A DNA stretch of 64,000 nt from an uncultured Ureaplasma sp. (lineage in GTDB: Bacteria; Bacillota_I; Bacilli_A; Mycoplasmatales; Mycoplasmoidaceae): the NCBI GenBank assembly GCA_947039515.1, contig CAMQYY010000004.1:20207-84206 (forward strand). Reading direction: 5' to 3'. Positions 57,836 to 64,000 of this stretch are shown piece by piece. Numbering within the stretch: position 1 is the stretch's first letter; the number at the start of each line of letters is the position of its first letter. The translations under genes and the position numbers were made by a program. A model generated the notes under the pieces. The model worked only from the letters and a program-made list of their open reading frames with translations, was not told the origin of the DNA and ran no database searches.

Positions 57836-58177
57836 TTAAATAAAAATATTCCCTTTATTAGAATAAATTTGAACACTATTTATTAGATTTTCATAATATC
57901 AATCAATTTGATCTGTTTCTAAAATTATGAAATTTGAATAATAACCTATAAAATTTGAACTTTTTTCAAATCAATTATTTTCTAATCTAAATTTAATATT
58001 TTCTTTATTATCAATCTTTAAATAATCATCTTTTTCAATAATAAGATAGTTAGATGAATCAACTTTCATTATTTTTCCACTTACATAATTATCAAATTTT
58101 AAAAACAATAATAGTGGCATAAAAATTGAAAAAAATATAATAAACCAAATAAAAATATTCTTAATTATTCTATTCAT
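57836..58177 (-). CDS. single-helix membrane protein following the ABC exporter
   Basis: A 113-residue protein with one N-terminal membrane helix (about 6-28, 'IFIWFIIFFSIFMPLLLFL') and a small outside domain with 'GKIMKVDSSNYLIIEKDD'. The short beta-rich fragment after the helix recalls membrane-fusion (HlyD-like) accessory proteins, but it is far too short for one. It starts 8 nt inside the exporter gene, so it probably works with it. Confidence 0.6.
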
Positions 58178-60146
58178 AAATTTCTAATGTATCTCTAAAA
58201 AAATTATGCATAAATTGATCATGACTTATTCAAATCAAAAAATTATTTTTAATAATAATGGGTTTAATATTATTCATTAATATTTCTTTTCTAAAAGAAT
58301 CAACATTATTTAAAACTTCATCTAAAATAATTACTTTATCCTCAAATAGAATAAGGAAAATGAAATTAAAAATTTGTTTAACACCAGGACTCATTTTTTC
58401 TATATTTAAGTCACCAATATTTAATTTCATATCTTTAATTGTTTTTATAACTATTTCGCTATATTCTGATTGAAAAACTTTATCAATTTTTTCTATATTA
58501 ATAGCATTATTAATTGACATGTAAATTATGTTTTTAGAAATTCAACTATTACTAATATTTTTCAAGTCTATTTCATTTAAATAAATATTACCGCTATCAA
58601 CATCATATTTCTTAGTTAACATTTTAACTATTGTTGATTTACCTATTCCTGACTTACCAAATAATAAAGTATCATTATGAATTGTTGAATTAAAATTTGT
58701 AATAATATTTCTAAAATTTACATTCTCATATTTAATTTTATTTATTTTTGATTTAATTTCTATATTTATATCATTCTCATTAATATTAGAAATATGTAAA
58801 ATATCGTTATAAATATTATTATTTACTTTATAAATTGGAATATCATTAATTAAACTTAAAAATCCATCAACAGATCCAGATACTAATTGAATTAAACTTA
58901 TTGAAAAAATTAAAGACCCTATATTTGTTTCATTATTGATAATCATTGTGTAGATACCTATAAAAACAATAAATACATAGATAATACTTTTTAATATTGA
59001 ATTAATGAAAGCAATATTGCTTGAAAATTTTATAATATTTTTACTTTCTTTCTTTTGAATGCTGAATAATGATTCAAGAGTAGTAATTTTACTATTAGTA
59101 TTATTAGAATTATGGTTACTTCTATTAAATAAAATATACTCGTTTCATGATTTAAATGATGAATTACTCAAATCTTGCATTTTTGAAATATTCTCTTTTG
59201 AGAAATTTAATTGAACAAGAGAAAATATAATTGATGAAATAATAATTAGAATAAGAACTAATAAAAATAATGGATTGATAATAGAAAGAACTATTGTACC
59301 AATAATAATACTCAATATATCAGCAACAATTTTATTTAGGTTCATCGAATAAAAAGAAGCGAGATCATAAATAATATCTTGTAGATTTATTAAGTAATTA
59401 TTATCTATTTTGTCATAGAAATCAAATTTTTTATTTGGAATTTTTTTATAAACATTATTCAGCATATAATTATATTTTTTAAGAACATCATCACTCATAA
59501 ATAGATTCAAAAAATATTCTGATATTTTATTTAATATAATTGCAATTATATAAATAATTGACAGTGTTAAGAGATTGGTTATTGATTCATTATTTAAACT
59601 TTTATCAATAATAGCTTGAATAAAAGTTCCAATAAAGACAGATAGTAATATATTTATAATATTAAATATATTTACAATTAAAATATATTTAATATTAATA
59701 TTTTTAAAGTAAGATTTATTATATTTTTTAATTTCTACATTTAAAAATACTTTTTCAACAAAAATAATGATTCCTGAAAAAATTTTTATAAATTCCTTAG
59801 TTGATAAGGAATATACTCCACTAGATGAATCATATATTTCAACTTCTTTTTTATTTTTTCTAGCAATAATATAATGTTGTAAGTTATTTTTATTAATAAT
59901 AGTTACAAAAAAATCATCAATTTTCGTTGCTTTAAATTCATCTGAATTCATTTCATAACTATCACAATCAATTCCATATTTTGATGCTAAATTCTCAAAT
60001 TGAATAATACTCATTCCACTATTTGTTATTTCAGAATCATCAAGAATTTGTGTCTTATTTATTTTTTTCTTATTAAAATGATTGAATAAAGACGTTATTA
60101 CACATACACCACACTCATTAGTATTTATTTGTTCTACAATTTTCAT
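58170..60146 (-). CDS. peptidase-containing ABC exporter (C39 family)
   Basis: A 658-residue protein assembled from four track pieces across TGA-Trp. Residues 1-140 form a C39 peptidase: 'INTNECGVCVITSLF' (catalytic Cys), 'QHYIIARKN' (His) and 'IYDSSSGV' (Asp). Then about six membrane helices, and an ATPase with Walker A 'LFGKSGIGKSTIVKMLT' and Walker B 'KVIILDEVLNNVD', 'ISHDQFM'. The signature, normally LSGGQ, reads 'MSPGVKQIFNF'. Such proteins cut the double-Gly leader from a peptide and export it. No substrate gene was found nearby. Confidence 0.9.
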
Positions 60147-60254: not shown

Positions 60255-60303
60255 TTATCTAAAAAAATTATTATCATTATATTAAAGATAAATGGTGAGT
60301 AGA

Positions 60304-61512
60304 ATGACTAAAAAAATAAGTTTATTATGAATTGCATTAGGAACTATATCATTGTCTATTTTATTGCCTATTACATTAATTGTTAATATAAATTCTAATT
60401 TAAATGAAAATAATTTATTAAGTATAAATTCAGAAAAAATTACTAAAACAGAAAAAATATTAACTAAAGATTTAGCAACTATTCTTGTTAATGATAAATT
60501 AGCAATGAGTAATTGAAATGGTCATTTAGTAGAAGAAGATTTTGAAACATATACAAGTATTGGTGAAAGTGCTTTTGAAGGAAACCAAAATATAACTTCA
60601 ATAACATTACCATTATCAATTACATCAATTGGTATGAAATCTTTTAGTAATTTAACTCTTTTAAAAAATATTGTTTTACCTGGTGTTACTAGTATTGGTT
60701 CAAGTGCTTTTAGTAATTTACCTAAGTTAACTACTATTGAATTACCTGTTGTAAGAAATATTAGTGAAAATGCTTTTATTGGTGCAACTAGTTTAAAATC
60801 TATTAATTTTCCATCTGCAACAAATGTAGCATCTGGAGCTTTTACTGGTGCAAGTAGTTTAACAACTATTGATTTACCTCTTGTAACAACTATTGGGCCT
60901 AGTGCTTTTATGGGTGCTACTAGTTTAATTACTATTGATCTTCCATCTGCTAAAACTATTGGACCTGAAGCTTTTAAGGGTATTAATGTTACTAGTATTT
61001 CAGCAGAACAAGCAACACTAATTGGTGCTGGTGCTTTTAGTAATTTATCTAAGCTAACTAGTATCAACTTACCTAATGCAAGCAATATAGATCAAAATGC
61101 TTTTACTAATGCAACTAGTTTAGAATTTATTGAATTACCTAAAGCAGTATCTATTGGTGATGGCGCATTTAAAGGCGGAACTAATTTAAAAGTTATTGAG
61201 TTACTTGTTGCTGAAAATATTGGTATTGGTGCTTTTAGTGGAAATTTAAATATAGTAAAAAGTGGAATAAGATTAACAAAAAATAATAATATACATCTTG
61301 ATAAAGCTAATCAATGAGAGACTAATACTGATAAACTAGATCTTTCTGGTACTAGTTATCCTATTCCGGATCCCCCTATCCCACCTATTATAAATAATCC
61401 TAATGATATTGATTGAATATTTTGAGGTTCAATAATTGGTGGTATTAGTTTTTTATTGATTATTGGTATAATTGTTGGAATATTAATTTATCGTAAAAAA
61501 ACATCTGAATAA
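60304..61512 (+). CDS. BspA-type leucine-rich-repeat surface protein
   Basis: A 402-residue protein (the ATG at 60292, in frame, is an alternative). An N-terminal hydrophobic signal/anchor (residues about 5-28) is followed by about eleven 22-residue repeats of the pattern 'TTIGPSAFMGATSLITIDLP', the LRR_5/BspA type. A short Pro-rich linker 'PIPDPPIPPIINN' and a C-terminal helix 'IIGGISFLLIIGIIVGILIY' plus a Lys-rich tail follow. This is a surface-displayed protein anchored at the C-terminus. BspA repeats in other bacteria and in Trichomonas bind host surfaces; that role is inferred here. Confidence 0.88.

Positions 61513-62781: not shown

Positions 62782-64000
<1,219 letters not shown>

Follow-up and report, generated by a model that had tools for sequence, protein, structure and literature searches.

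What does a C39 peptidase-ABC exporter transport in a mycoplasma? Mycoplasmas have the smallest genomes among free-growing cells, and the cut sites best known for C39 enzymes are GG, GA and GS. The question is raised by one gene in the 64,000-nucleotide stretch of uncultured Ureaplasma DNA analyzed here, which we call the window. Exporters of this kind survive in almost all mycoplasmas and have persisted even in the engineered minimal cell; there, for want of a known substrate, a speculative import role was put forward (PMC6609329). A passage of the same source, which cites Dirix 2004, describes C39 proteins in mycoplasmas without candidate double-glycine peptides.

The exporter gene occupies 58170..60146 on the reverse strand, as do all of its features given below, and is an open reading frame of 658 amino acids in genetic code 4. 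Three Pfam domains score above their cut-offs: Peptidase_C39 (PF03412, E = 2e-22, 79.7 bits against a cut-off of 22), ABC_tran (PF00005, 1e-13) and ABC_membrane (PF00664, 2e-7). The N-terminal C39 domain (amino acids 2-132, 59751..60143) carries the oxyanion residue Q6 and the triad C12 (60113-60111), H91 (59876-59874) and D106 (59831-59829), and the first-pass annotation was right to describe this triad as intact and the Walker motifs as kept. The chain continues with an exporter-type membrane domain (amino acids 162-426, 58869..59663) and an ABC ATPase with Walker A (GKSGIGKST, amino acids 497-505, 58632..58658), Walker B with the catalytic Glu (VIILDE, amino acids 605-610, 58317..58334) and an H-loop that reads SHD. 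This combination in one chain is that of the PCAT class. No other C39 domain occurs in the 686,630-bp assembly.

The partner gene (57836..58177, reverse strand, code 4) overlaps the exporter gene by 8 nucleotides and encodes 113 amino acids with one N-terminal transmembrane (TM) helix and a predicted beta domain. The initial suggestion that a 113-residue single-helix protein is coupled to the exporter is borne out by this overlap, by the predicted helix and by the recurrence of the pair in relatives. In most loci a small single-TM gene directly follows the exporter, usually with an overlap of 1-53 nucleotides. Almost every relative that was examined has the exporter-partner pair, and therefore the arrangement is not due to chance. 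The C39 domain itself was found in 268 of 296 genomes of the order (230 of the 248 high-quality ones), almost always in one copy. The pair tends to be found directly upstream of ybeY (a name read from the sequence) in families f5, f7, f8 and f10, and this linkage across families points to vertical inheritance of the pair.

Over its full length the exporter has as its best named family NF045998, 'Mbov_0121 family peptidase domain-containing ABC transporter' (E = 9e-83), with a score of 278.6 bits that is below the curated cut-off of 500, so that by NCBI's rule it is not a member; only 4 of 59 relatives pass this cut-off. The partner aligns end to end but weakly with NF045999, 'MAG1140 family' (14.1 bits, below the cut-off of 35, which the partners of genomes G053 and G044 pass). 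We regard the window exporter and partner as divergent relatives of these two families, whose models name the pair and give no substrate, and we agree with the earlier remark that mycoplasma C39 exporters are poorly described. Among characterized systems, PCAT1, ComA and LcnC (TIGR01193) have in common with the window exporter the order of C39, membrane and nucleotide-binding domains, the catalytic Gln, Cys, His and Asp, and the Walker motifs. It aligns end to end with PCAT1 (E = 9e-17) and ComA (4e-16) in the PDB, and, as in PCAT systems, an accessory gene lies immediately downstream. In contrast, identity is approximately 20-25%, the Q-loop Gln is lost, the chain is shorter, the accessory protein has just 113 amino acids, and the proposed substrates are unlinked.

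We searched for leader peptides with profiles and in targeted stretches. Near the window exporter we found no convincing GG-leader open reading frame, in accord with the earlier observation that no short double-Gly leader gene lies close by, and beside the exporter in 40 further neighborhood stretches there were only chance-like short frames of this type. A scan of genome contigs returned generic ATPase matches in non-mollicutes, two of which (L069 and L089, from other Bacilli) revealed the key operon: the same overlap of exporter and small partner, followed by two short GG-leader genes. In most loci read from family f20 of the Bacilli, a single operon encodes two GG-leader peptides together with the C39-ABC protein and its small single-TM partner. 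The first peptide carries the motif ..GxxDGxxRPxxC and the second ..SGTLINA..GRSLGSxIRR..C, and a profile of the second matches 48 of 395 genomes of the class, all in f20. By BLAST the f20 exporters are no closer to the mycoplasma exporters than a lactobacillus exporter is, and exporter orthology between the two groups is thus only a possibility. A third small membrane protein follows the two f20 peptides at L153:1656-1829, L169:1653-1823 and L176:1629-1775 (reverse-complement coordinates); it has no GG leader, ends in LGRYLGTVAR, a motif like that of peptide 2, and is possibly an immunity-type or partner protein.

The f20 and mycoplasma partners are related. Their profiles align with an hhalign E-value of 3.7e-8 over 117 columns, and the extracellular parts, with the TM segment removed, reach a score of 30.8, whereas none of 60 column shuffles exceeded 9.8. 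The AF2 model of the window partner has a pLDDT of 50, with the helix alone reliable; the model of the f20 partner (pLDDT 69) shows one TM helix and a beta domain that includes a short helix. Pfam and PDB profile searches with the partner gave no match. The best Foldseek matches of the f20 model were not significant, and membrane fusion proteins were among them at E-values of 0.3-0.7. In a comparison with ten HlyD/LcnD-type accessory proteins, the extracellular f20 profile falls on their C-terminal barrel and tail, and the full profile on their N-terminal TM segment. The former alignment scores 24.8, above the 14.8 that the best of 80 shuffles reached, but has an hhalign probability of only 8%. 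These accessory proteins and the partner share a gene position directly after the C39-ABC gene; unlike them, the partner is one quarter the length and has no lipoyl and hairpin part. On the strength of position and register we propose that the partner is a miniature accessory (adaptor) protein, and we treat this likeness as a lead and not as family membership. The partner was also considered as a substrate of the exporter and rejected: it has no leader, and in f20 partner and peptides occur side by side.

The larger f20 peptide profiles match small proteins of mycoplasmas via their leader. Profiles built from these mycoplasma sequences find precursors in 136 of 298 genomes, and a broad precursor profile has matches in 231 of the 296 genomes of the order at E ≤ 0.1 and in 191 at E ≤ 1e-3. 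Candidate substrates are thus present in roughly two thirds to three quarters of the searched relatives among mycoplasmas. Examples are MEKLSIQKSREIIGG followed by KGMLGALLNG... in f5, MKKLNEKQCNEISGG followed by IAITALISS... in f7 and MQLMKETDKKQINGG followed by IAPMLLWII... in f1. Within families the mature parts have conserved motifs (KIGNSTFKxDN in f5, GEIKTKDGFxAKWxD..GFHYC in f7 and RxSPxPSR in f1), a conservation that is not imposed by the leader-based search. The leaders of 38 precursors, whose statistics are biased since the precursors were found via the leader, are mostly 15 amino acids long, with Gly at -1 and -2, Ile, Leu or Val at -4 and Leu at -12. The relatives' precursors thereby show the hydrophobic residues at -4 and -12 and the Gly-Gly, Gly-Ala or Gly-Ser cut site of double-glycine leaders. 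Mycoplasma leaders were probably missed earlier because they have only about 15 residues, have no usual hydrophobic residue at -7 and, in the genus of the window, have partly lost the second Gly.

One precursor, MYKLEKAQAKQVVGG followed by LSFWTFS..., comes from genome G020, which we take to be M. genitalium, and is a member of NF045747, 'MPN313 family' (E = 5e-41, 138.9 bits against a cut-off of 100); the N-terminus of this family is the GG leader. Type A and type B precursors from the window's own family match NF045747 more weakly, and the pair pepA and pepB described below does not match it. NF045747 is named as a family only, with no function given, and in the earlier literature, as far as we searched it, we found no link between the MPN313 family and a C39 exporter. 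In the window's family, types A and B occur as a tandem pair in several genomes. The best-supported reading of this leader-bearing small-protein family is that it comprises previously unrecognized, mostly unlinked substrates conserved through the order. With such a family, an orphan exporter gene and a set of uncharacterized small proteins, among them the MPN313 family, would become a single pathway open to testing.

The genome of the window has a tandem pair of its own. The gene pepA (95 amino acids, C4:5861-6148, forward strand) and the gene pepB (71 amino acids, C4:6148-6363, forward strand) lie on the exporter's contig but outside the window, about 14 kb to the left of its base 1 and some 72 kb away from the exporter. 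The statement that no substrate is visible thus stands for the neighborhood and fails for the genome. An absence of any leader peptide from the genome, which the first-pass annotation had named, together with evidence that the gene is not expressed, as refuting its proposal, is not what we found. The pepA product reads MKRIINKENIFAG followed by AAAKK..., its predicted mature part beginning AAAKKPKPPPAMFSQQ, and is matched by a type A profile built without the window's own sequences (G000:C4:5861-6139, E = 5.9e-12). The pepB product reads MIKLSGISKILKG followed by ITPLGTATVVG..., and the type B profile gives it 12.5 bits, compared with 9.6 for the top-scoring of 500 shuffles; it is less well supported than pepA. 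Run directly on this genome, the f20 peptide profiles gave no match, as did profile A11; profile A14 includes the genome's own pepB, and its match there is not counted as evidence. The pepA leader ends in AG and that of pepB in KG, with Gly at -1 only, and for this reason a GG search misses both.

The two genes follow acpS and an rRNA methyltransferase-like gene (names read from the sequence). A ribosome site, AAGGAGAT, precedes pepA, pepB starts on the last base of pepA (a 1-nucleotide overlap), and downstream of pepB lies a strong hairpin with a run of T (-17.8 kcal/mol, z -8.1), which a simple terminator scan requiring three G-C pairs does not list. The dN/dS values are 0.072 for pepA and 0.30 for pepB. 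The same pair occurs in the sister genome G003, and 4 of 5 other genomes of the genus that were searched (G001, G002, G004 and G005) have pairs or candidate pairs with leaders ending in AG, GG or AGG.

Because the peptides are unlinked to the exporter in mycoplasmas, their pairing rests on co-occurrence, on C39 specificity and on the f20 operon. A precursor match at E ≤ 1e-3 is present in 186 of 268 C39-positive genomes and in 5 of 28 C39-negative ones, a count in which eight C39-negative genomes are taken by inference to have no match at this threshold. The Fisher values of 1.4e-7, and of 1.1e-4 when eight f11 genomes lacking both C39 and peptide are left out, are inflated, since the genomes are related and their independence is overstated. 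Three of the five C39-negative genomes with a match are fragmented MAGs. The AG and KG ends of the pepA and pepB leaders, in place of GG, count against the pairing. On balance we think it likely, judging from sequence, that the exporter and its miniature accessory protein cleave and export the conserved pair pepA and pepB, and that the window holds one half, the exporter, of a peptide-secretion system that is conserved in mycoplasmas. The C39 domain would recognize a short leader of about 13-15 amino acids, ending in Gly, on small precursors and would cut after this terminal Gly, and the ATP-driven membrane domain would carry the mature peptide, which is hydrophobic, across the membrane or into it. 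The substrates in this genome would be the tandem pepA and pepB of the acpS-rRNA methyltransferase-pepA-pepB cluster. The overlapping single-TM partner would serve as the accessory protein and probably corresponds to the C-terminal barrel of an HlyD/LcnD-type adaptor minus the long hairpin, for which a wall-less cell would have no use.

Such a role presupposes a working exporter, and the ABC signature had been called degenerate. The site of LSGGQ does read MSPGVKQ (amino acids 585-591, 58374..58394). However, S586 and G588 are retained, and both are invariant across 29 family members, as are the catalytic Gln, Cys and His, the Walker Lys, the Walker B Asp and Glu and the H-loop His. Relatives have LSxGQ/E. 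At position 589, where LSGGQ has its Q, 24 of 29 members carry Q and three carry E; V occurs only in the window and G003, to which MSPGV is limited. The odd signature is drift in one small lineage, and we see in it no sign of an inactive ATPase. A second anomaly, which the first-pass annotation did not mention, is that the Q-loop Gln (amino acid 545) is missing in 28 of 29 members and is thus a family-wide loss; with the catalytic Glu and H-loop His invariant, this loss may reflect an altered coupling between ATP hydrolysis and the membrane domain. Compared with G003, dN/dS is 0.124 for the whole exporter gene, 0.105 for C39, 0.076 for the membrane domain (amino acids 136-460) and 0.235 for the nucleotide-binding domain; the partner has 0.25. 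All exporter domains are under purifying selection, with the ATPase evolving faster, and the whole-gene value of 0.12 indicates that the gene is not decaying. An exporter that is decaying or inactive would agree with the MSPGV signature, the higher value of the nucleotide-binding domain and the lost Q-loop Gln, but we hold it to be very improbable given the retained ATPase residues, the low whole-gene value, a frame that is intact in both sister genomes and proposed substrates that are likewise constrained. The Asp equivalent to D106 is kept in 26 of 29 members; L019, L023 and L026, two of which belong to the genus of the window, have Cys in its place, and all three genomes contain leader peptides.

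A working exporter could instead belong to a class IIb two-peptide bacteriocin system, with peptides of the pepA and pepB type acting as antimicrobials released against competitors. The tandem arrangement would fit, the f20 peptides resemble lactococcin G-beta (1.9e-4, below the cut-off) and Bacteriocin_IIc (0.001), and some mycoplasma precursors touch the class IIb model TIGR03949 (0.004-0.04). However, every bacteriocin-family score is below its curated cut-off, the mature mycoplasma peptides are longer (about 58-115 amino acids) with conserved polar tails, and pepA is strongly constrained. No candidate immunity gene was seen beside pepA and pepB, nor a linked one in mycoplasmas, and on these grounds the pair does not qualify as a class IIb bacteriocin. 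The exporter is near-universal and single-copy in the order, so that a sporadic bacteriocin exporter is not to be expected, and we consider the bacteriocin system unlikely. These properties and the apparently vertical inheritance favor a resident envelope or signaling function. The chances seem to us about even that the exporter, the miniature adaptor and the short-leader membrane peptides form a vertically inherited, often two-peptide secretion system, kept by nearly all Mycoplasmatales (M. genitalium among them, and probably also the JCVI-syn3A lineage), that has such a role and does not serve competition, and that its substrates were overlooked from the time the exporters were annotated. 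A different proposal is import: gene 0401 of JCVI-syn3A was tentatively modeled as a lipoyl importer (PMC6609329), which would bring in lipoyl-lysine or a lipoyl-peptide, the lipoate being transferred to PdhC. This role was proposed because no double-glycine peptide had been found (PMC6609329). Leader-bearing precursors do exist across the order, the C39-ABC fold is an exporter fold, and f20 operons pair C39-ABC proteins with GG peptides; we give import hardly any credence.

Several further features surround the exporter genes. Divergent from the window exporter, at 60292-61512, is a gene whose product is a leucine-rich repeat protein of the BspA type (LRR_5, 5e-45) and has a TM segment at its C-terminus; this gene adjoins the exporter in G003 too and is absent beside it in the other relatives shown. 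Genomes of genus g5 have small Cys-rich open reading frames immediately upstream of the exporter (L020:1120-1389; L021:381-740 and 938-1249). At the right end of the window (63949-64000), a long (AG)n/(CT)n run lies within a frame resembling a DNA cytosine methyltransferase, in its open 5' part, and translates as SLSLSLSL..., which suggests phase variation by slippage.
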